Shown: piece by piece, positions 1 to 14,002 of the stretch
Numbering within the stretch: position 1 is the stretch's first letter
Layout: every line of letters starts with the position of its first letter
Assembly (NCBI GenBank): GCA_036881865.1
Contig: JBAJNM010000002.1
Coordinates: 1 to 64,000, forward strand
Direction of reading: 5' to 3'
Source of the DNA: Parvularculales bacterium
GTDB lineage: Bacteria > Pseudomonadota > Alphaproteobacteria > JAPOUT01 > JBAJNM01
DNA length: 64,000 nt
Notes under the pieces: generated by a model
Seen by the model: only the letters and a program-made list of their open reading frames with translations
Databases searched by the model: none
What the model was told of the DNA's origin: nothing
Position numbers and translations under genes: made by a program

Positions 1-1011
1 CCAGCTTATCAGCGCCGGCACACGAATACCGCCCTCCAGAACAGAGCCCTTGCCGCCCCGCAAATCACCATTATCAGCCGCCCCGTCATACATATTGGTG
101 CGCATGAATTCCATAAAGCGCACGGGCAGGGGAACGCCAAACAGTGATTGCATGCCATTGACAAACTGATAAGCAAACCGCGGCAAGAGTTCATGTCCGG
201 TCAAACCTCCATTGTCGCTCATGAATAAAATGAGCGTGTCTTTTGTCATTTTCTGCGCCTTAAGTTCGTCCAGAACGCGCCCGATGCCCTTATCCATTTC
301 ACTGACCATGGCGGCATGGATGCGCCTTTTTTCCGATTCAATAGCCGCATAAGGTGCTAGCGCTTCGGGCGGAGCTTCATTGGGTAAATGCGGCGCCCCA
401 AAAGCAATATAAAGAAACAGGGGTTTGGCCTTATCGCGTTGGCGTAAGACCCGCACCGCCTCATCGGCCAGCAAATGGGTCGTATAGCCTTCATCCCGCG
501 CGGTCACACCGTCGCGTTGCCAATCATAATGGCCGCCATGCACATGATCCCAGTAACCGACACCGCCAGTCAGATGACCGTAAAAACTGTCAAAGCCGCG
601 ATTGTTCGGGAGATGGGCTTTTTTGCGCGGCCCCAGATGCCATTTTCCGGCCAATGCCGTCTGATATCCGTGCTGTTTCAGAAATTCAGGCAAGAGCGTG
701 CGGTCAAGCGGCAGGCCATTGGGATTGAGCTTGGAATAGGGACGCGTGACACCGAGACGCAAAGCCGATTGTCCGGTCAGCAACGACGCCCGTGTCGGGC
801 TACAGGTCGGATGCGCATAAAAGCGCGTCAGCTGTTTACCATTGGCGGCCAACCGGTCAAGGTTTGGTGTCCTGATCTCGCTGCCGTTAAAGCCGACATC
901 CTGCCAGCCCAAATCATCGGCCAGAATGAAAATGATATCAGGCAGTCCGGCCGCCCCGGCCCAACCTGTGGGAAACCCCATAAGAGTAGCGAGTAAGATT
1001 AAAAAACGCAT
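1..1011 (-). CDS. Exported type I sulfatase, 3' end cut by window edge
   Basis: Formylglycine-dependent sulfatase of the alkaline-phosphatase superfamily, hydrolysing sulfate esters, probably in the periplasm. The 337 visible residues start with a signal peptide (about residues 1-21, hydrophobic, ending near WAGAAG). They hold the metal-binding ADDLGW motif, the CSPTR signature with the modifiable cysteine at residue 70, GKWHLG, and SDNGG. All core active-site motifs up to the edge are intact, so the gene looks functional and lacks only its C-terminus. The ATG start puts the signal peptide at the N-terminus. It is last in a leftward unit behind cytochrome b561 (23-nt gap) and a GST, which share a promoter region and palindromic operator with the aromatic-catabolism genes. 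An aryl-sulfate substrate is inferred from context only. A maturase (FGE or anSME) is not in the window. Confidence 0.93.
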   Translation of the reverse strand, partial: MRFLILLATLMGFPTGWAGAAGLPDIIFILADDLGWQDVGFNGSEIRTPNLDRLAANGKQLTRFYAHPTCSPTRASLLTGQSALRLGVTRPYSKLNPNGLPLDRTLLPEFLKQHGYQTALAGKWHLGPRKKAHLPNNRGFDSFYGHLTGGVGYWDHVHGGHYDWQRDGVTARDEGYTTHLLADEAVRVLRQRDKAKPLFLYIAFGAPHLPNEAPPEALAPYAAIESEKRRIHAAMVSEMDKGIGRVLDELKAQKMTKDTLILFMSDNGGLTGHELLPRFAYQFVNGMQSLFGVPLPVRFMEFMRTNMYDGAADNGDLRGGKGSVLEGGIRVPALISW

Positions 1012-1034
1012 GGTCCCTGCAATTCCACAAGCGG

Positions 1035-1604
1035 TCAGAGCTGCGTTTTTTTCCAAAATAGCAGCATGCGGAGCATGGTTCTATCGCGAACAATAAAATG
1101 ATGATATAGCGCTGCGACGATATGAATGACGATGAGGGCGATAATCAAATTGGTGCACGTTTCATGGACTAACCGCACCGACTGGAAAAAACTTTCATCA
1201 GCCGCGCCAAAAGCCGCGTCAAAAAAGCCGAAAATAACAATCGGCTGGCTGGCCGCACTGGCAGTAATAATACCGCTGAGTAAAAGTACTCCCATGAGCA
1301 CATACAAGCCTATATGACCCGCATGTGCGGCGAGCACCTGCCAGCGTGGCATGCCGGAGGGGAGTTCAGCACCGCCATGGCGATGCCGGAAATACAGCCG
1401 TAACACAAACAGAGTGGCCAAAATATAGCCCATGGTCGCATGGTCGGCGAGCGAGGCGAAACGGGTTTCATCATAGTAGGCAATGAACCCGTCAGGATCA
1501 CCGATAAAATCGCCGAATTTCTGGGCAATAAACAAATCAAGAATGATAAAAATACCCATGATCCAGTGAATGACTTTCTGGACAATAGCGTAATCTTTTT
1601 GCAT
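1035..1604 (-). CDS. Cytochrome b561 family membrane protein
   Basis: Four-helix membrane di-haem cytochrome of the bacterial b561 (CybB/YodB) type, 189 aa, the usual family size. Hydrophobic segments lie near residues 13-28, 53-72, 95-115 and 150-170. Candidate haem-ligand histidines are H13, H55, H147 and H161, matching the family pattern. The family moves electrons between quinol and periplasmic or membrane partners. The start has an AGGAG-type ribosome site in the 25-nt gap after the upstream GST, and the sulfatase follows 23 nt downstream, so the three genes are probably co-transcribed. Its partner here is unknown. It could feed or drain electrons for a redox step in the neighbouring catabolic pathway, but nothing in the sequence proves that. 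Confidence 0.9.
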   Translation of the reverse strand: MQKDYAIVQKVIHWIMGIFIILDLFIAQKFGDFIGDPDGFIAYYDETRFASLADHATMGYILATLFVLRLYFRHRHGGAELPSGMPRWQVLAAHAGHIGLYVLMGVLLLSGIITASAASQPIVIFGFFDAAFGAADESFFQSVRLVHETCTNLIIALIVIHIVAALYHHFIVRDRTMLRMLLFWKKTQL

Positions 1605-1629
1605 CCGGCGCTCCTATTCTATTTTCTTT

Positions 1630-2493
1630 TCAGGAAATGAAAGTTTGGATATGCCTTCGTCCGGCGCGATGTGCCAGACGGGTTGCGGCGGAAATGAGTT
1701 TGACCGGTAGCGGCGTCTTCACCTCGTTGCGGAACAATGGCCTTTTGTGCAGGCCATCAAACCATGCGCCGACATGCGGGTGCAGTGTGGCCAGCGGGTA
1801 GCCTGCGCCGATCAGCCGGTTGGCGTAAATATACCAGGCAATATCCACAACGCTCAGCGTATTGCCCAGCAAATAGGGCTGCTTTCGGAGGGTAGCCTCA
1901 TGCGTTTCCAGCGCGGTGCGTAAGGCCGTGACTGCTGCTTGCGCCCGCGCATCCGGAATTCCGTTGTGGGCTTTCATATCCTGCCAGAAGGCCAATTCCC
2001 CGGCTTTATGGTCATCGGGCCGGCCGCAGACCTGACCGGAACCTGCTTTCTCATAGTGCGCCAATTGTTCGTCACTGCGTTGCGCCATGGCAGACGGCAC
2101 GAAAAACCGCATGGTGATGGCGCGCAAATCCATATGCAAGCGGTCTTCAAAATCCAGCAGTTCGCTCACTTCCTCGGCCTGTCCGTCCGGTATCAGTTCC
2201 GGTGTAGGGAATTTGTTTTCCAGATAGGTGATGATGTCATTGCTTTCAATGATGACTTTACCATCATCAATCAGGGTCGGCACCAACCCGCGCGGATTGA
2301 TGCCCATATACCAATCAGTCTGGTTTTCACGTTTGACCAGATTTACAGGGTGCAGGGTGAGTTCAATATTTTTCAGCCGCACGTAAATCCGCAATTTTTG
2401 CGAGCATGACGAGCCGGAGAAATGAAACAGATGCAGACCCTGCCAGTGCAAAACCTCTCTGGTCAGGACATCAAATTCAGCCAGTTCTACCAA
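1630..2493 (-). CDS. Glutathione S-transferase family protein (zeta-like SSCS motif)
   Basis: Thioredoxin-fold N-terminal domain (about residues 20-100) and helical C-terminal domain, 287 aa. The active-site stretch at residues 28-31 is SSCS, as in zeta-class maleylacetoacetate and maleylpyruvate isomerases and in PcpC-type reductive dehalogenases. The conserved cis-proline segment (LVPTLIDDG) and the glutathione-contacting ESNDI segment follow. It heads the leftward unit GST-cytochrome b561-sulfatase. The chosen start is TTG: there is no in-frame ATG close by, and a purine-rich AGGGAGA precedes it. A palindromic TetR-type operator lies in the gap to the divergent tetR gene. The reaction (isomerase, dehalogenase or ether cleavage) cannot be settled from sequence alone. 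Confidence 0.85.
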   Translation of the reverse strand: MVELAEFDVLTREVLHWQGLHLFHFSGSSCSQKLRIYVRLKNIELTLHPVNLVKRENQTDWYMGINPRGLVPTLIDDGKVIIESNDIITYLENKFPTPELIPDGQAEEVSELLDFEDRLHMDLRAITMRFFVPSAMAQRSDEQLAHYEKAGSGQVCGRPDDHKAGELAFWQDMKAHNGIPDARAQAAVTALRTALETHEATLRKQPYLLGNTLSVVDIAWYIYANRLIGAGYPLATLHPHVGAWFDGLHKRPLFRNEVKTPLPVKLISAATRLAHRAGRRHIQTFIS

Positions 2494-2557
2494 GGCCCAT
2501 TCTCCCTGCCATTTTACACGAAATATCCGTATTCCTTCGATTCAAGCTAAAAATAGA

Positions 2558-2574
2558 ATTGACAGTATGTCAAT
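2558..2574. promoter_or_regulatory. 17-bp palindromic operator 1 (ATTGACA-N3-TGTCAAT)
   Basis: Perfect inverted repeat ATTGACA GTA TGTCAAT between the divergent GST and tetR genes. Each arm contains TTGACA, so the operator could overlap a -35 element in both directions, but no convincing -10 was found. The same arms recur at 4891-4907. Position, symmetry and adjacency to a TetR gene point to autoregulation and control of the leftward sulfatase unit (inference). Confidence 0.8.
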
Positions 2575-2611
2575 ACTCTTTTTAGCCTATCCGACGTAAA
2601 AGAAAGTATCC

Positions 2612-3250
2612 ATGCCAGCCAGCCAGACCAAGACAGAACTGACCCAAAAGGTAAAAGACACGCCCGGCAAAGGTGCGCGGGCACGTGAGGCGCTGATGGA
2701 TGCGGGATTGGAATTATTGGGTGAAATTTCGCTGCGCGAGTTAACGGTGGGCAAAATATGCGCCGCCGCACAGATGAAGCGGCCAAGTTTTTATACTTAT
2801 TTCGACTCCGTTGATGATTTACTTGACGCGATGATACGGCGTGAAATTGACAGGGTGGAAGCGCTTTATGAGGCGCATGAAACCGAAGATAAAAGTGCGC
2901 TGCACCGCTTGGCGCGCATTCCACTCAGTCTGGTTAAGATGGGCTTGCGTGATAAAAACCGCAGGAAGGCGATTGTGAAACTGATGGGTTCAGACCCCGC
3001 CTTCACCCATATACGCATGCAGAATTTGCGCCGCGATATCAAGGCAGCGATTGCCGAGGGAAGTTTGACCCTCGAGGAGAAACAGATTGATATTTTTATG
3101 CAAATTTATGTTGCCGGTATTTTGAGTCTGGTTGCACGCCATGCCGATGATGCCGTGCCCTCGCATGAAGCGGTCAGCACCTTGCAAATTTTATTGCGCG
3201 GGGCGGGTGGCGATCCGGCCATGCTAAAAGAGATTTTAAGCGCACCGTAA
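2612..3250 (+). CDS. TetR family transcriptional regulator
   Basis: DNA-binding repressor of the TetR/AcrR family, 212 aa, a typical size. The N-terminal helix-turn-helix spans about residues 43-68 (ELTVGKICAAAQMKRPSFY and the following YFDSVDDLL), the canonical tetR_N pattern. The C-terminal ligand-binding half is not assignable to a ligand. It lies divergent to the GST unit and 13 nt before a flavin hydroxylase, with which it is probably co-transcribed. Two identical-arm 17-bp palindromes, one before this gene and one before the FAH gene, are its likely operators. The ligand is presumably a pathway substrate or intermediate. The start ATG has only a weak ribosome site. Confidence 0.93.
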   Translation: MPASQTKTELTQKVKDTPGKGARAREALMDAGLELLGEISLRELTVGKICAAAQMKRPSFYTYFDSVDDLLDAMIRREIDRVEALYEAHETEDKSALHRLARIPLSLVKMGLRDKNRRKAIVKLMGSDPAFTHIRMQNLRRDIKAAIAEGSLTLEEKQIDIFMQIYVAGILSLVARHADDAVPSHEAVSTLQILLRGAGGDPAMLKEILSAP

Positions 3251-3263
3251 GGAGGACTACCCG

Positions 3264-4862
3264 TTGCGTGATTATGATGTGGTGATTGCCGGATTTGGAC
3301 CGACCGGTGCTCTGGCGGCCAATTTGCTTGGTAAGTACGGTATCCGCACGCTGGTGGTTGACCCGCAACCGGCGATTTATGACATTCCGCGCGGTGTGCA
3401 TTTTGATGGCGAGACGATGAGGATTTTCCAGTCGGTCGGTCTGGCTGATGCTATTTTTGCCCAGAGTGCATGCAACAAATCTCTGAATTTCGTCAATAGC
3501 CGTGGCTTATCGCTTATGCGGGTGGAGTTGGATGGTTTGCCGCAAACTACCGGCTGGCCGGCAAGTATATTCTTCCGCCAGCCGTTGGTGGAAAAACACC
3601 TGCGTGATCATTTGAGCCACTTTGACAGCGTCACCGAAAATCCGGGCTGGGCATTGCGGGAGCTGATGCAAGATGAAGACGGCGTAGAGTTGACACTGCA
3701 AGATGTTGAAAGCGGCGAAGCAAAGAAGATCAGGGCGGCTTACCTCATCGGCGCTGACGGGGCCGATAGCACAGTGCGCCAATTGCTGGATATTCCGCTT
3801 GAAGATATGCAATGCGATGAACCCTGGCTGGTGGTTGATTGGGAGCTTGAGCCGGATATCACGTTTAATCATGATGTTTACCAGTTTTGCGATCCGGCAC
3901 GGCCCGGCACTTTAGTTCCCTGCGCCGGTCAGCACATTCGCTGGGAATTTATGATTAACCCGGGTGATGATTATGATGCGATGGAAGAGGAAGATGCCGT
4001 GCGTGCCATGATGGCACCTTATCTGCACCATTTATCACCCCATATTCGCCCCGATCAGGGGCAGATATTACGCTCTAAAGTCTATCAGTTTCATGGCCTG
4101 CTGGCTGAGCGCATGCGTGCCGGAAGAGTGTTTTTGATGGGCGATGCGGCACATCAAATGCCGCCTTTTCTGGGTCAGGGCATGTGCGCCGGTTTGCGTG
4201 ATGCCGAAAATCTCATATGGAAACTGGCCGGCGTTTTGGGTGGGCGCTATGAAGCCCATATTCTCAGCAGCTATCACAGTGAACGGCATGCGCATGTCCG
4301 GGCGGTTATAAAACAGGCCGTGAAAATTGGTGAAATTATCCAGACACGAAACCGACTGAAAGCCATTATGCGCGATACTTTTCTGCGCCTCGGCAAGCTG
4401 CTGCCGAAACTGCTTAGCGGCATTGAATTCGGTCAGACCTGGCGGCTCGGTAGCGGTCTTTTTTCGGGTGATCCGGCCTCCGGCCGGCAAATTCCGCAAC
4501 CGCTTGTGCATCACCCCAATACGCCTGACAAAACGGAAAAGCTTGATGCGTTTTTGCCGGAGGGATTTTGCCTGCTGGCCCTGCACAATACCGGTAAAGC
4601 CGATTTCCAGAGAGTCAGTGATGCCTATCCGCAACTCGATTGTAAAATTCTGGTGTTGGGAGATGATTTGGTAGAAACCGATGGATTGCTCTCAGTCATG
4701 GCCGGACAACATCGGCTGAGCGGGTTTTTATTAAGGCCAGACCGGCAAATTTATGCCGCTTTGAAAGAGGGCGGCCCACCGTTGCCACACCAGTTGGAAG
4801 AGCATTTGGCAACTTTATCGCAACATCTTTTTGCCAACGGAAAAAAATTGCCTGCAGAATGA
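3264..4862 (+). CDS. FAD-dependent aromatic hydroxylase, MhpA-like
   Basis: Class A flavoprotein monooxygenase, 532 aa, that would use NAD(P)H and O2 to hydroxylate a phenolic ring. It has the N-terminal Rossmann dinucleotide motif GFGPTG (residues 10-15), the VDGADS-type middle motif seen as GADGADSTVR, and the FAD-binding GDAAHQMPPFLGQG near residue 293. That last motif in this form is typical of 3-(3-hydroxyphenyl)propionate hydroxylase (MhpA) and relatives. The C-terminal thioredoxin-like domain expected in the family occupies roughly the last 130 residues. The start is TTG, well placed 8 nt after GGAGG, directly behind tetR. The true substrate may differ from MhpA's, since no other mhp gene is present. 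Confidence 0.9.
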   Translation: MRDYDVVIAGFGPTGALAANLLGKYGIRTLVVDPQPAIYDIPRGVHFDGETMRIFQSVGLADAIFAQSACNKSLNFVNSRGLSLMRVELDGLPQTTGWPASIFFRQPLVEKHLRDHLSHFDSVTENPGWALRELMQDEDGVELTLQDVESGEAKKIRAAYLIGADGADSTVRQLLDIPLEDMQCDEPWLVVDWELEPDITFNHDVYQFCDPARPGTLVPCAGQHIRWEFMINPGDDYDAMEEEDAVRAMMAPYLHHLSPHIRPDQGQILRSKVYQFHGLLAERMRAGRVFLMGDAAHQMPPFLGQGMCAGLRDAENLIWKLAGVLGGRYEAHILSSYHSERHAHVRAVIKQAVKIGEIIQTRNRLKAIMRDTFLRLGKLLPKLLSGIEFGQTWRLGSGLFSGDPASGRQIPQPLVHHPNTPDKTEKLDAFLPEGFCLLALHNTGKADFQRVSDAYPQLDCKILVLGDDLVETDGLLSVMAGQHRLSGFLLRPDRQIYAALKEGGPPLPHQLEEHLATLSQHLFANGKKLPAE

Positions 4863-4890
4863 AAGAACCCCATGCACCAAAGATCCGAAA

Positions 4891-4907
4891 ATTGACAAAG
4901 TGTCAAT
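4891..4907. promoter_or_regulatory. 17-bp palindromic operator 2 (ATTGACA-N3-TGTCAAT)
   Basis: Perfect inverted repeat ATTGACA AAG TGTCAAT, with the same 7-bp arms as the site at 2558-2574 and only the 3-bp spacer different. It lies in the 103-bp gap between the MhpA-like gene and the FAH gene, where the nine-gene unit would start. Probably bound by the TetR protein encoded at 2612-3250. Confidence 0.8.
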
Positions 4908-4912
4908 AACTC

Positions 4913-4946
4913 ATTGACAGACGTTTGAAAATTTCGGACAGTCAAT
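4913..4946. promoter_or_regulatory. Additional operator half-sites upstream of the FAH gene
   Basis: ATTGACA at 4913-4919 and the opposed GTCAAT at 4941-4946 repeat the operator arms 6 bp beyond operator 2, but with a 22-bp interval between the ATTGAC and GTCAAT cores. They could be a second weaker binding site, or part of a promoter whose -35 is TTGACA at 4914. No good -10 is visible at 16-18 bp spacing. Confidence 0.45.
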
Positions 4947-4965
4947 TGAACAAGAGGAGGGATTT

Positions 4966-5844
4966 ATGAGACTGGTTACATTTACACAAGATGGCACAAT
5001 GCGTATTGGCGTTTTGAATGGTGAAAGCATCACCGATTTGTCCCGCGCCAAACCGGATTTACCGTGCGAGATGAACGCATTTTTACGCGCCGGTGATGCG
5101 GCTGTACAGGTTGCACGTGCCGCAAAAGGTGATGATTTTGCACTAAACGACGTCAAGCTCCTCTCGCCTGTTTCGCAGCCCGGTAAAATTCTGGCCGTTG
5201 CCCTGAATTATTCCGATCATCTGAAAGAAGTGCAGGAAGCCATGCCGGATTTTCCGGCACCCAAAATACCGATGTTGTTCACCAAGCAAAACTCCTCCGT
5301 CACCGGCCCCTATGACCCGATTTATCTGCCACCGGAATCCGAGCAACTGGATTATGAAGCCGAACTTGCCATTGTTATCGGCAAAACCTGCCGCCGGGTC
5401 CCTAAAGAGCGTGCGCACGAGGTCATTGCCGGTGGCATGGCCGCCAATGATGTCTCCATTCGCGACTGGCAAATGGCCTCGCAAACCATGACGATGGGTA
5501 AGAGCTGGGACAGTCATTGCCCAATGGGGCCGGCACTGGTGACGCCGGATGAACTTGATTTTGCCGATATTGATTTCACCTGTCTGGTGAATGGCGAAGT
5601 ACGCCAAAGCTCCAATACCGGTCTTCTGGTGTTTGATATTCCGACCCTCATCAACCATTTATCAACGGTATGTACTTTGCATCCGGGTGATATCATCCTG
5701 ACCGGGACAACCTCGGGCGTGGCGCTCTGGATGGAAGGCCAGCCCTGGCTGAAGCCCGGTGATGTCGTCACCTGTAATTTCGGTCCGCTCGGCACAATCG
5801 AAAACATTGTCGAAAAAGATCCGGTCGGTACCGTTATAGAATAG
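4966..5844 (+). CDS. Fumarylacetoacetate hydrolase family protein
   Basis: C-C bond hydrolase or decarboxylase of the FAH superfamily, 292 aa, the usual length for bacterial two-part FAH proteins. The catalytic domain shows N81-Y82 and H85 (ALNYSDH), the metal-binding E131 and E133 (DYEAEL), N161-D162, K179 and D182. These residues are intact, so an active Mg2+ or Mn2+ enzyme is expected, for example acting on fumarylpyruvate, an acylpyruvate, or a 2-hydroxydienoate after ring cleavage. GAGGAGGG precedes the ATG. It is first in a closely spaced unit that runs to 12163 and lies behind operator 2. Together with the downstream zeta-like GST and dioxygenase it fits a gentisate- or hydroquinone-like route (inference). 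Confidence 0.92.
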   Translation: MRLVTFTQDGTMRIGVLNGESITDLSRAKPDLPCEMNAFLRAGDAAVQVARAAKGDDFALNDVKLLSPVSQPGKILAVALNYSDHLKEVQEAMPDFPAPKIPMLFTKQNSSVTGPYDPIYLPPESEQLDYEAELAIVIGKTCRRVPKERAHEVIAGGMAANDVSIRDWQMASQTMTMGKSWDSHCPMGPALVTPDELDFADIDFTCLVNGEVRQSSNTGLLVFDIPTLINHLSTVCTLHPGDIILTGTTSGVALWMEGQPWLKPGDVVTCNFGPLGTIENIVEKDPVGTVIE

Positions 5845-5860
5845 GGCAGATGGATAGAAG

Positions 5861-6757
5861 ATGATCCCGCATGAGGCAGAATTCGAACTCTATCATTATG
5901 GCGAGTCCCTGTGCTCGCAAATGGTGCGTCTGGCGTTGGAGGAAAAGCAGATTGCCTATAAGTCACACCACATGCATCTGGAACTGACCGGCGAAAACCT
6001 GTCGCGTGCTTATAAGAAAATCAATCCAAATGTGGTTGTCCCGGTGCTCGTGCATAACGGCACGCCGATTTATAATAGTTGGGAAATTTTGCGCTATCTG
6101 GATGATTATGCGCCGCAACAGGGCACGCCACTTTTGCCGAAAACGGCGGAAGGTCTGGCTGCACTGGACAGTTTAGTGCATGAAAATGCGCTCCGCGGTG
6201 ATGTAGAACTGGGTGAAAATTTCGGCACATCAATTGCCGGTGCCAGCACTTATATCCTTGCCAATATATTAAAGCGCCGTCCGGTACCGGCGGTGATGTG
6301 GGATTATTTGACCAAACATCCGGACCGCATGCGCAAAGTCGCTTTTTGTGTGCTGCGTTTGCGTGGCGGGCTGCCCAAGCCGCTTTATGAAAAATTCATC
6401 CGCCGTCTCGCACGGGGTCTGGCCGATAGCGAGCAGCGGCTGTCTGACGGCCGTGATTACATGTTTGGCGATTATTCGCTACTTGATGTGATGATGACGT
6501 CACATTTTCACCGGCTGGAAGATGTGCATCTCGATATGATCTTCACCACCGGCCGCCTGCCATATCTTACTGCCTATTGGCAACGCGTACGGGCACGGCC
6601 CAGCTATGAACCGGCAATAACCGGGTTTCACAGTTGGGAATGGCGTGCCGCCATAGATGAGATTTACAAAGGCCGGCCTTCACCCTTCCTGCCGCTTCTG
6701 GCAAGTGAAGTGGATAAGCATCTGGCCGCCCAAAAGCAAGGAAAGGACGCCGCATGA
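5861..6757 (+). CDS. Glutathione S-transferase family protein (SLCS motif)
   Basis: Second GST of the locus, 298 aa, with thioredoxin-like N-terminal half and all-helical C-terminal half. The active-site stretch is SLCS at residues 16-19, close to the S-x-C-S of zeta-class isomerases and of tetrachlorohydroquinone reductive dehalogenase PcpC. The cis-proline region (VVVPVLVHNG) and the NSWEI glutathione-binding segment are intact. It is larger than standard zeta GSTs (about 210-230 aa) because of an extended helical domain. It starts 16 nt after the FAH gene and its stop overlaps the next start (ATGA). Within the operon a glutathione-dependent cis-trans isomerisation of a ring-cleavage product is the favoured role. 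Dehalogenation is the alternative. Confidence 0.88.
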   Translation: MIPHEAEFELYHYGESLCSQMVRLALEEKQIAYKSHHMHLELTGENLSRAYKKINPNVVVPVLVHNGTPIYNSWEILRYLDDYAPQQGTPLLPKTAEGLAALDSLVHENALRGDVELGENFGTSIAGASTYILANILKRRPVPAVMWDYLTKHPDRMRKVAFCVLRLRGGLPKPLYEKFIRRLARGLADSEQRLSDGRDYMFGDYSLLDVMMTSHFHRLEDVHLDMIFTTGRLPYLTAYWQRVRARPSYEPAITGFHSWEWRAAIDEIYKGRPSPFLPLLASEVDKHLAAQKQGKDAA

Positions 6758-7137
6758 GTTATGAAATTGATGAAGAAAAAATGGCTGCGGGTGCAGCCAT
6801 TGTTGAAAAACTGGGTTTGCTGTCAAAGGCCGGTCCGGCGCTGAGCGATGATTTACGTGCGCATACGCTCCAGGCCCTGTTTGGTACTATATGGACGCGC
6901 GACGGGCTGGAATTGAAGCAACGCAGCCTTATCACCCTGACAACGTTGATTGCACTAAATCGCGAGCATGAGCTGGTTTTGCATTTCCGCGGCGCGCGCA
7001 ACCTCGGCATAGAACGTGAGACCATTGAGGAAGTGATCCTGCATGTGGCCCATTATGCAGGCTGGCCTGTGGCCGTCACCGCCAGTTCCATACTGGATGA
7101 TGTCTGGAAAGAAATGGATGAGGAGATGGCCCAATGA
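6754..7137 (+). CDS. Carboxymuconolactone decarboxylase-like protein
   Basis: Small all-helical protein of the CMD/AhpD superfamily, 127 aa. The segment ELKQRSLITLTTLIAL, followed by EHELVLHFRGA and EEVILHVAHYAGWP, is the standard gamma-carboxymuconolactone decarboxylase pattern. There is no CxxC, so it is not an AhpD-type peroxidase. Family members decarboxylate a lactone in the protocatechuate pathway, but many operon-linked paralogues have unknown lactonase, isomerase or decarboxylase roles. It overlaps its neighbours by 4 nt on both sides (ATGA), so translational coupling with the GST and the dioxygenase is likely. No other protocatechuate-branch gene is present, so PcaC itself is not claimed. 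Confidence 0.88.
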   Translation: MSYEIDEEKMAAGAAIVEKLGLLSKAGPALSDDLRAHTLQALFGTIWTRDGLELKQRSLITLTTLIALNREHELVLHFRGARNLGIERETIEEVILHVAHYAGWPVAVTASSILDDVWKEMDEEMAQ

Positions 7138-8219
7138 CCCGACCGGTTGCAAAAGTTTCTGATGTCATTTTTGTGCGGTTTCAGTTGCGCGACCTCAAGG
7201 CGCAAGCCGATTATCTGGAAGATTTTGGCATGATTGCCGTCACCAGAGACAATGAGTCAATTTACTATCGTGGCACCGGCACCGATGCGTATATTTATGC
7301 CGCTGAAAAAGGCGGGGCAGATGCTTTTATTGCCGCAGGTTATGAAGTCAACACAATGGACGAACTGGACGCTCTGGCTTCTGCACAAGGCGTTGAGGTT
7401 GAAGACGGCGATGCACTGATGGGCGGTAAAATGGTGCGCTTTAAAGATCCCGACGGTCTGGGCGTTGAAGTCTATCATGGCGTCAATAAATCCAGCCCGA
7501 TTGATGAAAGCGTGCCGGTATTGAACTCCGGCAAGCAGAAAAAACGACTGAATGAACCCCAGCGTTTCGGGCGCGGTGCGGATGAGTGGGAAATCGACAG
7601 TGAGGGTAATATGCGCTACGCCCTGCCGAGCAGCGTCATGCGGCTGGGTCATACCGCCATCAATGTGAAAGACGGGCAGGCCAGCATACAGTGGTATCAT
7701 GATGTGCTGGGCATGATTGTCTCCGATAATATCATCGGGCCGGACGGTAATGTCGGCGGGGCTTTCATTCGCTGCGATAATGGCGAAATGCCGAGCGATC
7801 ACCATACATTAAATGTGGTGGCCCTGCCGCCTGAAGCCGAACCGTTTCACGGCACATTCGGCCATGCCGGCTTCGAGCTGGAAAAATCGATGGATGATTT
7901 GCTGGCCGGTCACTTTCATATGAAAACCACCGGCAAATACACCCACGAATGGGGTATCGGGCGTCATCTTCTGGGGAGCCAACTGTATGATTACTGGCGT
8001 GACACAGCCGGTTTTATTCTTGAGCACTGGACTGATGGCGATCTGGTAACCGCCGATCAGCCACCGCAGGATGTACCCTTCATCAATGTGGTGAAGGGGC
8101 AATATGGGCCGACTCCTCATTCCAGCTTTAATCTGCCGATGCCGCCTGAGGCACTGGACGATTTCCGTGAAGCCGTGCCAGGTCTGGTCGATATCATTGT
8201 CAAAGGCGCCCCCCGCTAA
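7134..8219 (+). CDS. VOC-fold extradiol-type ring-cleavage dioxygenase
   Basis: Two-module vicinal-oxygen-chelate protein of 361 aa. The N-terminal module (about 1-120) contains no evident metal set. The C-terminal module (about 165-305) has the type I extradiol pattern: H173 in LGHTAINV, H244 in FGHAGFEL, and E297 in FILEHWTDGD, a likely 2-His-1-Glu Fe(II) site. Such enzymes open catechols, or hydroquinones in the LinE/PcpA branch, next to the hydroxyls. The length exceeds the common 290-310 aa, mainly through a linker near residues 121-165 and a C-terminal tail. It follows the CMD gene with a 4-nt overlap and precedes a flavin hydroxylase. It is the only ring-cleavage candidate in the locus, so it probably sets the pathway type. 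Confidence 0.85.
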   Translation: MTRPVAKVSDVIFVRFQLRDLKAQADYLEDFGMIAVTRDNESIYYRGTGTDAYIYAAEKGGADAFIAAGYEVNTMDELDALASAQGVEVEDGDALMGGKMVRFKDPDGLGVEVYHGVNKSSPIDESVPVLNSGKQKKRLNEPQRFGRGADEWEIDSEGNMRYALPSSVMRLGHTAINVKDGQASIQWYHDVLGMIVSDNIIGPDGNVGGAFIRCDNGEMPSDHHTLNVVALPPEAEPFHGTFGHAGFELEKSMDDLLAGHFHMKTTGKYTHEWGIGRHLLGSQLYDYWRDTAGFILEHWTDGDLVTADQPPQDVPFINVVKGQYGPTPHSSFNLPMPPEALDDFREAVPGLVDIIVKGAPR

Positions 8220-8236
8220 AATCAGAGACAAGTGCG

Positions 8237-9883
8237 ATGTCGGAAACCGGCAACAATGATGCGGACGTTATCATTATCGGGGCGGGCCCTGCCGGCATGC
8301 TGGCAGCACTTCTCCTGGCCAGGCACGGACTGAGTAGCCATATTGTTGAGCGGCGCAGAAAAATTGCGGAAACACCACGCGCTCATGCGGTAAACGGCAA
8401 AACAATTGAAATTAGCAGCACGGCCGGTATTCCCGCCGAAGAGATTTACGTCGCCGGTATGCCTGTGAGGCGCGGCGGTATGGTTAATTTCTGGTCGACC
8501 CTGTCGGGCACTTATCTCGGCGGGTTGCCTTATGAACGTCAGGATGATGCGGTTCTGGAACTTGCTCCCTACAGGCTGGTCAATATTTCACAACCACGCT
8601 TTGAAGCGATCTTGGAAAACCATGTGACGGCCAATCCCGGAATCAGCCTGTCACGCGGGATGCAATGCACCGGTTTTAGTCAGGACGATAGAGGCGTGAC
8701 GGCGATTGTGCAGAGCGGGGAGGGCAGGGAAGAAACCCTTAAGGGTGATTATCTGATTGCCGCCGATGGCGCCGGATCTCCTCTGCGCCGGCAAATGGGC
8801 ATTGAGATGGAAGGGCCGGACGCGCTGCAACATTTTATGACGATTCATTTTCATGCCGATTTGTCGGAACTGATCGGCGACAAGCCCGGTATTCTGCATT
8901 GGATTATGGAGCCAACGGCAGCGGCTGCGCTGATCTCTTATGATGATGGTCAAAACTGGGTTCTGATGCATAATTGCCCGCCCGATGGGGAAGATCCGGC
9001 ACTTTATGATGAAGTACGCTGCCGCGGTTTGGTGGCGGCGGCGCTGGGACGGAATGACGTTGAGTTTACCATTCACACTATTGACCCCTGGGTGATGACG
9101 GCACAAGTGGCGGTGCAATACCGCAAGCACCGGGCCTTTTTGGTTGGTGATGCGGCGCACCGGTTTCCTCCGGCCGGCGGGCTGGGGCTGAATACCGGCG
9201 TTGGTGACGCGCAAAATCTGGCGTGGAAGCTGGCAGCCGTTAAAAAGGGTGTTGCCGGACCGGTTTTGCTGGACAGTTATGAGGCCGAGCGTAAACCGGT
9301 GGCCGAAACCAACAGCGCCCAAAGCCTTGAAAACGCCATGCGGATGATTGAATTGATCGGGTTTTTGCTTGGGCCCGATCCGGAAAATATGCAAACGCAT
9401 TTTGACACCATTTGCCAACATGCCGAAAGTTCGACTGAACTGGCCGGTGCCATAGCGGCGCAAAAGCTCCATTTCGACAGTCTGCGCCTGCAAATAGGCT
9501 ATAGTTATGGCGGTCACGACGATACCGCGCTCGGTATTGATGATTACCGCCCGCAATTCCGCATTGGCGATTGCCTGCCGCATTGTGCCGTCAACCATAA
9601 ACAAGCAACACTACCGCTTATTGAACTGGTTCAGAGCGGGCACTTTACCCTGCTGTTGCGCGATAATCAGGAAGTCCCCCCAATATCCGATGAGCGACTG
9701 GATATTATGCGGGACGGAATTGATTTTACCGGCAACTGGAGTGAGCAACTGGCCGCGTGGGATGATAATCTGGCGGCTCTGCTTGTGCGGCCTGACGGGC
9801 ACATTGCTGCTCATTTTTTAGCCGGTAGCGTGAGTGAGAAAAATGTCAGCGCGGCTATAGCCCGTGTGCTGGCCAATCAATAG
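8237..9883 (+). CDS. FAD-dependent monooxygenase, phenol hydroxylase-like
   Basis: Second class A flavin hydroxylase, 548 aa. It has GAGPAG in the N-terminal Rossmann motif, the DGAGSPLRR middle motif, and GDAAHRFPPAGGLGLNTG for the FAD ribityl side, a version common in PheA/TfdB/PcpB-like phenol hydroxylases and clearly different from the MhpA-like paralogue at 3264-4862. The C-terminal thioredoxin-like domain occupies roughly the last 140 residues. It begins 17 nt behind the dioxygenase. Having two flavin hydroxylases suggests two ring oxidations, or hydroxylation plus displacement of a substituent, before cleavage (inference). The substrate cannot be read from sequence. Confidence 0.9.
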   Translation: MSETGNNDADVIIIGAGPAGMLAALLLARHGLSSHIVERRRKIAETPRAHAVNGKTIEISSTAGIPAEEIYVAGMPVRRGGMVNFWSTLSGTYLGGLPYERQDDAVLELAPYRLVNISQPRFEAILENHVTANPGISLSRGMQCTGFSQDDRGVTAIVQSGEGREETLKGDYLIAADGAGSPLRRQMGIEMEGPDALQHFMTIHFHADLSELIGDKPGILHWIMEPTAAAALISYDDGQNWVLMHNCPPDGEDPALYDEVRCRGLVAAALGRNDVEFTIHTIDPWVMTAQVAVQYRKHRAFLVGDAAHRFPPAGGLGLNTGVGDAQNLAWKLAAVKKGVAGPVLLDSYEAERKPVAETNSAQSLENAMRMIELIGFLLGPDPENMQTHFDTICQHAESSTELAGAIAAQKLHFDSLRLQIGYSYGGHDDTALGIDDYRPQFRIGDCLPHCAVNHKQATLPLIELVQSGHFTLLLRDNQEVPPISDERLDIMRDGIDFTGNWSEQLAAWDDNLAALLVRPDGHIAAHFLAGSVSEKNVSAAIARVLANQ

Positions 9884-9896
9884 GAGGCAGTTCATA

Positions 9897-10676
9897 ATGG
9901 ATCTCGGATTAACAGGTAAAAAAGCAGTGGTCTGTGCATCATCGCGCGGGCTTGGTTATGCCTGCGCTGCCGCGCTGGCGCGCGAGGGCGCACATGTTAT
10001 CATTAACGGGCGCAACGCCGAGACACTGACGGCGGCTGAAAACGAGATTAGAAAACTGAAAGCAGGCGCGGTCAGTTCAGTGGTGGCGGATCTGGACAGC
10101 GAAGACGGGCGTGCGGCACTTCTGGAGTCATGCGATGCGCCCGATATTCTGGTGACCAATAATGGCGGCCCTCCGCCCGGCACTTATCAGCAATGGGATG
10201 AAGCCATGTGGCGTGATGCTTTCACTGCCAATATGATTGCGCCGGCACTGCTTATCCGTGCTGTGGTGGACGGTATGCGCGAACGCAAATTCGGTCGCAT
10301 CGTCAACATAACCTCAGCCATGGTTAAATCGCCCCACCCCAATATGGGGCTTTCAAATTCGGCCCGTTCGGCTTTGACGGCCTTTTCGAAAGGCTTATCC
10401 AAAGAGGTCGCGAAAGATAATGTGACGATTAATAATTTGCTACCCGAGCGTTTTGACACGCAACGCCAGCAGCAAATGGCCGAACTGGCCATGGCACTAA
10501 AGAAGATTTCATACGAGGAAGCGTGGGCCGAGATGGAAGCCAGCATTGCCGCCGGCCGCCTCGGACAACCGGAGGAATTAGGTGATGCCTGTGCCTTTTT
10601 ATGTTCCGAGCAGGCCGGATTTATTTCCGGTCAAAATCTGCAATTGGATGGCGGTTCTTATTCCGGATTGATTTGA
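9897..10676 (+). CDS. Atypical short-chain dehydrogenase/reductase
   Basis: Rossmann-fold SDR of 259 aa. The cofactor loop reads ASSRGLG (residues 14-20), NNGG lies at 88-91, and the active-site Ser is S140 in NITS. The usual YxxxK is absent: the aligned stretch is GLSNSARSALTAFSK, with Leu152 in place of the catalytic Tyr and Arg where Lys is expected. This is known in a divergent SDR subgroup resembling beta-ketoacyl-ACP reductases (cd05344-like), so it is a lineage feature and not damage. The ATG at 9897 was chosen over an upstream in-frame ATG because GGAGG sits 9 nt before it and the upstream option would run into the preceding gene. Its role in the operon is uncertain, and it may not be a classical dehydrogenase. 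Confidence 0.88.
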   Translation: MDLGLTGKKAVVCASSRGLGYACAAALAREGAHVIINGRNAETLTAAENEIRKLKAGAVSSVVADLDSEDGRAALLESCDAPDILVTNNGGPPPGTYQQWDEAMWRDAFTANMIAPALLIRAVVDGMRERKFGRIVNITSAMVKSPHPNMGLSNSARSALTAFSKGLSKEVAKDNVTINNLLPERFDTQRQQQMAELAMALKKISYEEAWAEMEASIAAGRLGQPEELGDACAFLCSEQAGFISGQNLQLDGGSYSGLI

Positions 10677-10686
10677 GGAGAGACAA

Positions 10687-11103
10687 ATGGTTGTGAATTT
10701 AATTGCTCATGGGTTCGTCAGCCTTGTCGCCGTGATGATCATGATTGGCCCGGTGTTTGCCGATTTTAACAAGACCCATGCTACCAATCCTTTATGGACA
10801 CCCCATGCGCGCTTTCATGTTGTCTGGCAAGTGCTGACCAATTCGGCACTGGCGCTGTTAACCTTGTATTTCATCTGGGGAATGGACAATCTCGTGCTCG
10901 GTGCTTTGATGAATTATATCTGGATTGCCACTTTTTTTGCGACAATGGCCGCCATGCCTATGTTTGAAGGGGCACTAGCCGATGTAAACGGTATCAAGCC
11001 GTTTGTCTGGAAGTTCGGAAACAAGGTTGTGAAAGTCGATACCAATTTGTTCGGCGCCTCCATCATGACAATTTTCAACACGACCGGCCTCGTATTGGCC
11101 TAA
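10687..11103 (+). CDS. Small integral membrane protein, function unknown
   Basis: Unrecognised 138-aa protein with about four hydrophobic segments (near residues 3-24, 47-65, 68-92 and 118-138). The loop after the first segment is rich in His, Asn and Pro (THATNPLWTPHARFH) and looks like the most conserved part. That kind of loop could bind a metal or haem, but this is a guess. GAGGAG precedes the ATG, 10 nt after the SDR stop, and the next gene starts 4 nt after its own stop. Its position between an SDR and a membrane-anchored FAH protein suggests a membrane scaffold, carrier or transport accessory for the pathway. Confidence 0.75.
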   Translation: MVVNLIAHGFVSLVAVMIMIGPVFADFNKTHATNPLWTPHARFHVVWQVLTNSALALLTLYFIWGMDNLVLGALMNYIWIATFFATMAAMPMFEGALADVNGIKPFVWKFGNKVVKVDTNLFGASIMTIFNTTGLVLA

Positions 11104-11107
11104 GGGT

Positions 11108-12163
11108 ATGAGAATGGCATTGCAAATAACCGCCCTTATTCTCCTCATTGCGGTTACCGCTTTTGTTGGCCGCAGTCTTTATGTTTCACAGCCACTCTTC
11201 AAAGAGCATTTGAGTGAAGCACCGGAGGCCGCTTTCACCCTTGCGCCGGTGGAAAAAGCATTGAGTTTTGCCCGCACGCCGGATGGCCGAAGTCTTCTGG
11301 TAACAGAGATGAGCCGCAACGGTGTGACGGCCGTTGATCTTGCCGCTGCTACCGGCTCACAAAAATCCGAACCACTGGACTATTTCAGGGCGCTTGGTGA
11401 AGAGGGATTGATGCCGCTGATCGGCGGTGAAAGCAAAAACTATGGCTGGCAAGACCTCGGCGTGCCGTTTGATACGCAAACCACCATTATCGCCGCCGGC
11501 ACCAACTTCAAAGCCCATGCCGAAGAAGTCGGCTTGGAGGACGGACCGTTTCTGTTTCCGAAATTATCAGAGCCGACCGCATGGCAGGTACCTGTGGTCC
11601 AGCGCACCAGACTGGATTATGAGGTTGAACTATGCGCGGTTGCCATTGACGACATCGCGTCCGGACAAAAAGGACGTTTTGCATACGTGTTGTGTAATGA
11701 TCTGACTGACCGATGGGCTTTGCTAAGAAACATTAGTCTTAAAACCCCGCTTGGCCGCACCGGCTTTCCGGAAGGCAAGGGCGGTGAAGGTATGCTGCCT
11801 GTTGGCGCTATTTTGACCGTTCCCAAACAGGCTGAATTTTACAATGAAATTGAACTGGGCCTCAGTGTTAACGGTCGTCTGCGCCAGCGTGCCGGTGCGG
11901 CTCTGATGATCTGGGATGCAGATGCCATTGCCCAAAAGGCTCTTTCAATTTGCGGTGAGGATTTTTATTTGCACAAAGAGATCCTGAAAATCGCCGAATG
12001 CGATGGCCTGAAACGCGGCACGGCGGTTCTGCTTGGTACACCGGAAGGGGTAGCGTTCCAATTGCCCAATATATGGATGCCATGGGCCTATTTGCGCAAA
12101 GGCGACATGATTTTGACCTACGGCACCCATCTGGGCATTCTGGAAACCCGCATCGGAAAATAA
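11108..12163 (+). CDS. FAH-family hydrolase with N-terminal membrane anchor
   Basis: Second fumarylacetoacetate hydrolase superfamily member, 351 aa. Residues 5-21 form a hydrophobic helix (ALQITALILLIAVTAFV) not normal for this soluble family, followed by about 100 residues before the catalytic fold. Active-site landmarks are present: N133 and H137 (GTNFKAH), E172 and E174 (LDYEVEL), and the NDLTDR segment near 197-202. It is the last gene of the rightward unit, 4 nt after the small membrane protein. The helix could be an uncleaved anchor, with the enzyme on either face, or a poor signal peptide. The sequence to the first FAH protein is clearly divergent, so the two probably act on different intermediates. 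Confidence 0.85.
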   Translation: MRMALQITALILLIAVTAFVGRSLYVSQPLFKEHLSEAPEAAFTLAPVEKALSFARTPDGRSLLVTEMSRNGVTAVDLAAATGSQKSEPLDYFRALGEEGLMPLIGGESKNYGWQDLGVPFDTQTTIIAAGTNFKAHAEEVGLEDGPFLFPKLSEPTAWQVPVVQRTRLDYEVELCAVAIDDIASGQKGRFAYVLCNDLTDRWALLRNISLKTPLGRTGFPEGKGGEGMLPVGAILTVPKQAEFYNEIELGLSVNGRLRQRAGAALMIWDADAIAQKALSICGEDFYLHKEILKIAECDGLKRGTAVLLGTPEGVAFQLPNIWMPWAYLRKGDMILTYGTHLGILETRIGK

Positions 12164-12248: not shown

Positions 12249-12614
12249 ATGGCGGTTAGTGCAGAATATAAAGAAATGGTGTGCGAACTGCTTGAAGGAC
12301 TCGGGGCGGTGCGCATTAAAAATATGTTCGGCGGGGGAGGGGTCTATTGTGAAGAGGTGATGTTTGCCCTCATCGCCGATGAAACGCTTTATTTTAAAGT
12401 TAATGAGACTACGATCCCCTCATATGAGGCGGAAGGATGCAGCCCGTTTGTTTTTGAAATGGCCAATGGCCGTAGCGCGACCATGTCGTACTGGTCTTTG
12501 CCGGACTATCTTTATGACGACCCTGAAGAGGCCGCCGTGTGGGCCCGCCGTGCTTTAGATGTTGCCCATGCGGCTAAAGCCGCCAAGCCTGCCCGCACAA
12601 AAAAACGCCGCTAA
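12249..12614 (+). CDS. TfoX N-terminal domain protein
   Basis: Single-domain TfoX_N protein, 121 aa. The fold signature is visible as VRIKNMFGGGGVYCEEVMFALI, the LYFKVN strand, and the MSYWSLPDYLYDD segment before the terminal helix. The C-terminus is short and basic (KPARTKKRR). Homologues of this small form are widespread in Alphaproteobacteria and lack the second domain of the competence regulator TfoX/Sxy, so a role in competence should not be assumed. Its stop overlaps the convergent SLAM-like gene by 4 nt. It lies 85 nt behind the catabolic operon, with no visible link to it. Confidence 0.88.
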   Translation: MAVSAEYKEMVCELLEGLGAVRIKNMFGGGGVYCEEVMFALIADETLYFKVNETTIPSYEAEGCSPFVFEMANGRSATMSYWSLPDYLYDDPEEAAVWARRALDVAHAAKAAKPARTKKRR

Positions 12615-14002
12615 AACTGACGAACAACTCTCATTTCAGCGCGGGTCCGGCGGTAGTCGTAGAGCTGCGCGTTTGACGAGCGCACTTCGCGGGCAACGAA
12701 AAGTTGAGGACTAAAGCCGCCTATGGTGAAAGCCCTGTTAAAAAGGGATATATCCAGTTGCCAGATGCTGTCTCTGCGGGATGAGCCATCCAATACGAAA
12801 GGAAGCCACTGGCCCTTATACCGTACCCGCTGTATTTCACCGCCGATGCCCAGTGTAAATCCCCGCGGCAGGGCTATTGATGTCCCCAGCCGAAACCGGC
12901 GGGTAGCATTGCGCCATCTTTCCGCTTCGGTCTGCTCCCAGATATAGTTTGCCATGCCCTCAAGGCGCACGGTGGGGGATGCAATGTATGTGCCACCCAG
13001 TCCAAGGACCGTTTGATATCCGTCAAGATGTTTTTGCGTCCGAAAAGAACGCTCATACCGGGAGAGGCGCCCGTCAATCTGAAGGCTCCGGGTGGGGCGG
13101 TGAATAATTTCAAGAGAGGGCCCGGTTTCCCGGTTGTAACGTCGACCGGCCGTCAGGTTCATACGGACGTTGGCCAGTATGCTGAATTCCGTATCCGGAC
13201 CGGTAAGCAGGCGCGGCCCGATATGGGCGGAGATTGTGGTTCTGTCAAAACTTTTGGCGGCATAATCCTGACGTGAAATCGAACCGCCGGTTCGCAATCT
13301 GATCTTGTCGCCCAGAGGATACTGATATTCCCCTCCTGTCCAGATATTAACACCGATTCCTGATTTTGAGCCGGATTCTTCACCAAAGCGGAAAGGCAGC
13401 CCGAAAATATATACTGTGTCGTTCTCCGATGCGGCATTGATATTGGTGCTGGGTGCCAGAGAGATGCCGAAATAACTACTCCAGCGTCTGCGTTGCCGTA
13501 TCAAGGTTAAAAAGTACCGGATATTGGCAGCGACAACCGGAGGCGGATTGCCCGCCAGAGCACGTTCAAAGTTTTCACGGGACAAATCATCGTCGCCTTT
13601 CAGAAAAAAAGCACGTGCCAATTCGAGCCGTACCCGCACAAGACCCGGATTGTTTGTCAAAATTGACCGGAAGGCGGTAATGGTCTGATCGAGTAAAGCA
13701 TTTTTCCTGTCTTCTGCCGTTTCCCGACTGGCTACTTCCAGAGACGTCAACCCCAACAGAAACAGGGCCTCTATGGTGCTGAGGTCACCGGGTGGCAGGG
13801 ATTGCAGTATTTTTAGAGCCTCCTCAAAGCGCCCCGTGTCAATGAGCCTTTGGGCGTATGCCATAGAGGCGCCGGAGGAGGACAGGGAAGGAGTTACAGG
13901 GTCAGCTATGGACTCAGCCATAACCGAAACTGGGGACAGGGCAAAAATAACAACAGCGGCCAGTGCTATTAAAGTGGCTCTTGAGGGTAAGGTTTTAATC
14001 AT
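12611..14002 (-). CDS. SLAM-like outer-membrane protein (TPR plus DUF560 barrel)
   Basis: 463 aa with a signal peptide (about 1-29, ending near SVMAES), a TPR-like helical region (about 45-175: AQRLIDTGRFEEALKIL and FLKGDDDLSRENFERAL), and a C-terminal beta-barrel of alternating strands from about 185 ending in a terminal Phe (VVRQF). This architecture matches surface lipoprotein assembly modulators, which move lipoproteins or other small proteins through the outer membrane. The usual partner, a barrel lipoprotein or haemophilin-like cargo gene next door, was not found: the neighbours are a convergent TfoX-N gene and an enoyl-CoA hydratase. It stands alone with its own upstream region (14003-14188). 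The cargo is unknown. Confidence 0.82.
   Translation of the reverse strand: MIKTLPSRATLIALAAVVIFALSPVSVMAESIADPVTPSLSSSGASMAYAQRLIDTGRFEEALKILQSLPPGDLSTIEALFLLGLTSLEVASRETAEDRKNALLDQTITAFRSILTNNPGLVRVRLELARAFFLKGDDDLSRENFERALAGNPPPVVAANIRYFLTLIRQRRRWSSYFGISLAPSTNINAASENDTVYIFGLPFRFGEESGSKSGIGVNIWTGGEYQYPLGDKIRLRTGGSISRQDYAAKSFDRTTISAHIGPRLLTGPDTEFSILANVRMNLTAGRRYNRETGPSLEIIHRPTRSLQIDGRLSRYERSFRTQKHLDGYQTVLGLGGTYIASPTVRLEGMANYIWEQTEAERWRNATRRFRLGTSIALPRGFTLGIGGEIQRVRYKGQWLPFVLDGSSRRDSIWQLDISLFNRAFTIGGFSPQLFVAREVRSSNAQLYDYRRTRAEMRVVRQF

Follow-up and report, generated by a model that had tools for sequence, protein, structure and literature searches.

Why does a sulfatase gene lie beside genes for the opening of aromatic rings, and do the two belong to one pathway? 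The question is raised by the first part of a 64,000 nucleotide (nt) stretch of DNA from a Parvularculales bacterium (assembly GCA_036881865.1, contig JBAJNM010000002.1, positions 1 to 64,000), here called the window. Positions 1-12163 hold 13 genes grouped in three transcription units (Table 1), which encode among others a sulfatase, a TetR-family regulator, flavin monooxygenases (FMO), a VOC-fold dioxygenase, glutathione transferases (GST) and FAH-family proteins. Our analysis suggests that this cluster is probably a catabolic island under TetR control, which serves to open the ring of a sulfated aromatic compound.

Evidence for joint control comes from the promoters. The divergent promoter and the promoter ahead of fah1 each carry the palindrome ATTGACA-N3-TGTCAAT, with identical arms and zero mismatches, so the identical-arm operators reported in an earlier note on this DNA are real. 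Across the whole 2.33 Mb genome these are the only two copies at 0 or 1 mismatch, with a chance expectation of 0.008 per genome; each promoter of the cluster thus has this site, and the rest of the genome has none. The palindrome recurs with at most one mismatch at the matching promoters of the related loci L061 and L063, and before fah1 in locus L062, within flanking DNA that has diverged. Since the genome has no other copy of the predicted operators and these relatives have kept them, the single TetR regulon that the earlier note had proposed is supported. A further ATTGACA at 4913-4919, a few bases past the second operator and also kept in L061 and L063, may be a half-site or a -35 box.

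Gammaproteobacterial clusters of the same kind carry a different palindrome, TAGYCA-N2-TGRCTA, for which shuffled sequences give essentially zero matches. At L064, from a member of the Porticoccaceae, it occurs at every promoter region including that of the sulfatase: at 927 (ahead of the sulfatase), 1733 (tetR/hydrolase), 4733 (FMO/aldehyde dehydrogenase) and both 6566 and 6581, upstream of a TonB receptor-GST-VOC unit. It is also present in L065-L069, L150 and L153, while it was not found in L070, L152, L154, L162 or L164; the alphaproteobacterial operator was not found in the gamma loci.

To place the dioxygenase among its relatives we ran a profile search over 84,980 species genomes and kept the best 80 matches, in which a long-form clade (~360 aa) stands apart from many short forms at ~40% identity. 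The long clade includes L061-L063 and L073 in the Alphaproteobacteria and, on the gamma side, L064, L065 and L067 (recorded as Porticoccaceae or Cellvibrionales), L066 (Gammaproteobacteria) and L068-L072 (SAR86). The dioxygenases closest to that of the window are those of L061 (84% identity) and of L063 and L062 (both 79%). There are 13 full-length loci, and since L062 is cut too close, 12 of them can be tested for a sulfatase. An orthologous sulfatase lies within ~10 kb of the long dioxygenase in 11 of these 12, the exception being L073, while a clear sulfatase is found near the short type at ~8 of ~87 loci, with a weak match at a few more (Fisher p = 7e-9, with kinship and a few duplicate loci left uncorrected). 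Homologous loci that lack the sulfatase, which the earlier note would have counted against its proposal, are therefore typical of the distant short types and not of the close full-length clade. Identity to the sulfatase of the window is 37-56% for the cluster sulfatases and 24-28% for the four other full-length sulfatases of the window's own genome. Full-length relatives of the dioxygenase are present in further Alphaproteobacteria as well as in Porticoccaceae and SAR86, and the search of other genomes that the note had advised turned out in its favour. When the order of the Porticoccaceae genome was searched, the long dioxygenase came up in the seed genome alone, among 195, so it is rare in that order.

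In SAR86 we examined 151 genomes spread evenly over the order. The long dioxygenase is present in nine, and in all nine the sulfatase is 0.7-6.5 kb away; the 1.2 Mb genome G385 has a single sulfatase, which is located in the cluster. A second SAR86 type, L162, is a tight SDR-GST-VOC-SULF-FMO-FAH-DUF6640 operon (SDR, short-chain dehydrogenase; SULF, sulfatase), and L164 differs in having no SDR at its head. From VOC to DUF6640 the genes of both operons are at most ~40 nt apart, and divergent TonB receptors lie alongside. As the gene order varies between cluster types yet the set stays together, joint function is better argued than it would be by one inherited block. Judged from sequence, sulfatase, FMO, VOC dioxygenase, GST and FAH form a unit that is conserved and co-regulated, and there is good support for a tie of the sulfatase to ring cleavage. 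The earlier placing of the sulfatase in the same pathway is borne out by its retention beside the dioxygenase across Alpha- and Gammaproteobacteria in varied gene orders, and by its own operator site in L064. Sulfatase orthologues are also present in SAR86 genomes without the long dioxygenase. Several of these lie in related clusters, namely the compact operons of L162 and L164, clusters with FMO, FAH, GST and a small VOC protein (L156, L159) and clusters with FAH, GST and a small VOC protein without a clear FMO match (L155, L157); recognised ring-cleavage genes were not found adjacent to the orthologues in L158, L160, L161, L163 and L165-L169.

The sulfatase itself appears complete. Its reading frame is broken only by the start of the window, which coincides with the edge of the contig (C2); the C-terminus is carried on contig C48, whose end overlaps the first 141 nt of the window exactly, giving a joined protein of 501 aa. 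The intact CSPTR motif described earlier is present as CSPTRASLLTG, and the residue set of formylglycine-dependent S1 sulfatases (CSPTR with D, D, K, H, H, D, N and K) is invariant in 18 sequences. An FGE gene adjoins the sulfatase in L063, and the source genome has FGE at another place. A homologue of the cytochrome b561 gene lies beside the cluster in L061, L067, L069 and L070.

The closest solved structures to the sulfatase, from a model of the L061 protein (pLDDT 71.5), are GalNAc-4-sulfatase and S1_19 carrageenan sulfatases, with a Pseudomonas arylsulfatase further down. Because the resemblance to carbohydrate sulfatases is at least as great as that to aryl ones, the aryl sulfate substrate is putative. 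The enzyme could instead cut an alkyl or sugar sulfate from a conjugate (for example a sulfated glycoside or a meroterpenoid) of which the aromatic compound is one part, leaving the aromatic genes to treat the released aglycone. Those nearest structures agree with such a role, but the annotated genes shared by the clusters include no glycoside hydrolase, and subfamily likeness at 25-30% identity leaves the substrate unfixed; we consider this explanation unlikely.

Sulfatases are often sulfur-scavenging enzymes, and this one might be a neighbour for sulfur supply that shares only the regulator. However, it is kept with ring-cleavage genes in several gene orders and in two classes. SAR86 genomes are, moreover, reported in PMC11582366 to lack support for incorporating sulfate other than a putative permease. 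In SAR86 a role in sulfur supply would therefore hardly make sense, and for the cluster in general we regard it as very improbable. Sulfur assimilation in the source genome was checked with PF01507, a model that also covers CysD-type proteins.

The route of ring cleavage can be approached through the dioxygenase. Its AlphaFold 2 model (pLDDT 89, pTM 0.88) has the two-domain VOC fold of BphC and catechol 2,3-dioxygenase, with 1mpy (catechol 2,3-dioxygenase) as the best PDB match (E 3.4e-21), and of the 50 best fold matches one is a glyoxalase-named entry, the others being catechol, homoprotocatechuate, dihydroxynaphthalene, HsaC and biphenyl-diol enzymes. The three metal ligands and three second-shell residues expected of a type I extradiol enzyme (Table 1), aligned to 1han, are invariant in 23 sequences. 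Given this complete BphC/catechol 2,3-dioxygenase active site, sequence and model favour extradiol meta-cleavage of a catechol over the gentisate- or hydroquinone-type route that was first suggested; the sole dioxygenase of the cluster has the VOC fold, and a cupin-fold gentisate/homogentisate dioxygenase was not found in the cluster.

In a gentisate- or homogentisate-like route the hydroxylase would form a hydroquinone, the dioxygenase would cleave beside the side chain, the zeta-like GST would isomerise the maleyl product and FAH would split it. A GST with an SSCS motif and an FAH do accompany the dioxygenase in most close loci, and a BphC-family enzyme that acts on 2-isopropylhydroquinone, encoded next to FAH and nitroreductase genes, is reported in PMC12442392, so the active site does not settle the choice between meta-cleavage and hydroquinone cleavage. 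Both GSTs, however, fall far under the maleylacetoacetate isomerase cut-off (74 and 69 bits against 171 for the maiA model), below the equivalog level for maleylacetoacetate/maleylpyruvate isomerase; the label zeta-like applies to their N-terminal domains and does not extend to the whole isomerase. As all six BphC catechol-site residues are invariant and the fold matches are catechol-type enzymes save for the glyoxalase-named entry, this route is doubtful.

Sulfated bromophenols could be degraded by a halophenol route in the manner of PcpB, PcpC and PcpA, with dehalogenation by FMO, reductive dehalogenation by GST and cleavage by VOC. We take the enzyme classes of the cluster to resemble those of the Pcp pathway, three of them matching, and the gamma clusters add a nitroreductase, but no PcpA-like dioxygenase is among the VOC matches listed, and we give this route very little weight. 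Steroid-sulfate degradation was set aside: homologues of HsaA, KstD, KshA and HsaD were not recognised among the cluster genes, and the dioxygenase scores 39 bits to HsaC.

For the degradation of a sulfated aromatic by meta-cleavage we infer each chemical step, the order of the steps and the substrate as follows. An exported, FGE-activated sulfatase would strip the sulfate in the periplasm, and the freed phenol would enter the cytoplasm, where the MhpA-like flavoprotein would hydroxylate it next to the hydroxyl group to give a catechol. The VOC dioxygenase would then open the ring by extradiol (meta) cleavage; one or both GSTs may isomerise or otherwise process the ring-fission product using glutathione, and FAH1 would cut a C-C bond to yield central metabolites. 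The carboxymuconolactone decarboxylase-like protein (CMD) and the four genes at the end of the cluster, here called module 2 (FMO2, SDR, DUF6640 and FAH2), would handle a side chain or second ring, and these genes vary with the organism. TetR would repress the three units through the two operators until the substrate or an intermediate binds. The gamma clusters also hold a CoA-acylating semialdehyde dehydrogenase, a malonic-semialdehyde-reductase-type nitroreductase and an alpha/beta hydrolase, which are plausible lower-pathway enzymes.

Several points weigh against this scheme. A zeta-like GST would have an unusual role in a meta-cleavage route, and with carbohydrate sulfatases as the nearest solved relatives an alkyl or sugar sulfate is possible. 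Several SAR86 sulfatase orthologues (L163, L165-L169) are not near any dioxygenase, and related genomes are non-independent samples. Lastly, L073 (VOC 54% identical) has fah1-gst2-cmd-voc with no sulfatase within 10 kb, so this core can work without the sulfatase and may serve non-sulfated substrates too. The four genes of L073 (positions 7821-11068, Rhodobiaceae FE80) are 54-71% identical to those of the window.

Known systems share parts of this arrangement. In the mhp pathway for 3-hydroxyphenylpropionate the hydroxylase MhpA feeds extradiol cleavage by the LigB-type MhpB, followed by the hydrolase MhpC; the window has an MhpA-like hydroxylase in common with it, but a VOC-fold enzyme replaces MhpB, and FAH and GST replace MhpC. 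The flavonoid A-ring clusters fde (Herbaspirillum seropedicae SmR1) and ifc (Variovorax) resemble the window in that an FAD hydroxylase (FdeE, IfcA) is succeeded by a dioxygenase of the glyoxalase (VOC) family that cleaves the ring (FdeC, IfcB), the FMO and VOC dioxygenase lying in one cluster as they do here; unlike the window, their descriptions in the accessible parts of PMC11069340 and PMC11303751 do not mention a sulfatase, a zeta-like GST pair, b561 or DUF6640. The ipp cluster for 2-isopropylphenol (Rhodococcus sp. D-6) has a monooxygenase, a BphC-family extradiol dioxygenase, an FAH-family gene and a nitroreductase gene, as the gamma clusters do, but its monooxygenase is two-component, its dioxygenase has 211 aa and a sulfatase is not among the genes listed in the available text of PMC12442392. 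In SAR86, catechol 2,3-dioxygenases, GSTs, arylsulfatase A and TonB receptors have been noted for aromatic and lipid degradation; the available part of PMC11582366 assigns the sulfatase to sulfolipids, without linking it to a dioxygenase in one cluster.

The enzyme combination was not found described in open-licence literature on aryl-sulfate, SAR86 sulfatase or sulfated-phenolic degradation clusters. We tentatively raise the possibility of an undescribed pathway family for sulfated aromatics in SAR86, Porticoccaceae and marine Alphaproteobacteria, with a sulfatase used for carbon, not sulfur, and opening the way to extradiol cleavage. This would imply a sulfated aromatic common enough in surface seawater for a dedicated operon even in streamlined 1.2 Mb genomes. 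Titles of published papers record sulfated phenolics from marine macroalgae and seagrass, but nothing in our analysis ties these compounds to the cluster. If correct, the proposal would give a concrete, testable substrate class for SAR86, among the most abundant bacterial groups of the ocean, would account for the sulfatase of bacteria that reportedly have no sulfate assimilation, and would make sulfated aromatics a distinct portion of marine dissolved organic matter. With the two TetR operator types now defined, biosensors could be built for the search for the compound.

Table 1. Transcription units, genes and predicted operators of the cluster (window positions)
Feature	Position	Strand	Evidence or remarks
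Leftward unit: gst1, b561, sulfatase		-	
Rightward unit 1: tetR, mhpA-like		+	
Rightward unit 2, eight genes: fah1, gst2, cmd, voc, fmo2, sdr, DUF6640, fah2		+	
S1-type sulfatase, N-terminal hydrophobic signal segment, CSPTR formylglycine motif	1..1056	-	PF00884 195.9 bits
Cytochrome b561-family membrane protein	1035..1604	-	PF01292 83.5 bits
GST 1, zeta-like N-terminal domain, SSCS motif	1630..2493	-	maiA 73.9 bits, under cut-off; homologues L061, L066, L068-L070
Operator ATTGACAGTATGTCAAT, divergent promoter gst1-b561-sulfatase // tetR-mhpA	2558..2574	.	conserved at L061:3402, L063:5360
TetR-family regulator	2612..3250	+	PF00440 34.8 bits
MhpA-like group A flavin hydroxylase	3264..4862	+	NF004829 449.8 bits (cut-off 390)
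Operator ATTGACAAAGTGTCAAT, ahead of fah1 unit	4891..4907	.	conserved at L061:5770, L062:213, L063:7731
FAH-family hydrolase 1	4966..5844	+	PF01557 226.4 bits
GST 2	5861..6757	+	homologue adjoins dioxygenase in 13/13 full-length loci
CMD	6754..7137	+	PF02627 66.3 bits
VOC-fold extradiol dioxygenase, long form (361 aa)	7134..8219	+	metal ligands H173, H244, E297; second shell H224, H278, Y287
Second flavin hydroxylase, FMO2 (module 2)	8237..9883	+	PF01494 277.7 bits; homologue beside VOC and SDR in L054, L136
SDR (module 2)	9897..10676	+	identity 66% L054, 63% L136, 53% L162
DUF6640 small membrane protein (module 2)	10687..11103	+	PF20345; homologues L069, L070, L072, L162, L164
FAH-family protein 2, N-terminal hydrophobic segment (module 2)	11108..12163	+	PF01557 59 bits; 37% homologue in L136

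All genes named in the earlier note were found, with families as given there, and the tight spacing it reported (tens of nt or overlaps) corresponds to intergenic distances of -22 to +25 nt within units; the divergent promoter spans 118 nt and the spacing ahead of fah1 is 103 nt. The last unit, counted there as nine genes, has eight, a TfoX_N gene coming 85 nt later. The SDR most likely starts at the ATG at 9897, directly after an AGGAGG box, and with this start the fmo2/sdr overlap disappears.

Module 2 is absent from the nearest relatives L061 and L063 and is seen again as voc-fmo2-sdr-fah2 in L136 and voc-fmo2-sdr in L054, so the right-hand unit seems to consist of a conserved core and a tail that can be exchanged. 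The tail of L062 differs, having another hydroxylase and a citrate-lyase-like protein, which might hint at a methylated C4 product. After voc in L062 (positions 3635-5876) we find an FMO like 3-hydroxybenzoate 6-monooxygenase and a CitE/RipC-like lyase.

The source assembly is a draft of 89 contigs. Downstream of the cluster the window continues with genes of the core chromosome (parE, lon, nuo, dnaE, trigger factor), so the cluster is a chromosomal island rather than an obvious piece of a plasmid or phage, and a second copy was not found among the four genomes of the source organism's order. Matches on plasmids were distant VOC genes, all below 60% identity, and an annotated sulfatase was absent from the two plasmid regions inspected. 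A SlipAM (PF04575) outer-membrane protein with TPR repeats adjoins the cluster at 12611-14002 on the opposite strand, and operon structure does not connect it to the cluster.

Among the SAR86 sulfatase orthologues, those of L158, L160 and L161 have TonB receptors and a VTT-domain protein on both flanks, with no recognised ring-cleavage genes, and those of L165-L168 each form a conserved pair with a GST, an alpha/beta hydrolase-cluster gene lying on the opposite side. The SAR86 cluster sulfatases (L070:17563-19134 and orthologues) have a conserved hydrophobic C-terminal segment, which the alphaproteobacterial and Porticoccaceae (L065) proteins are without and which suggests a membrane anchor.

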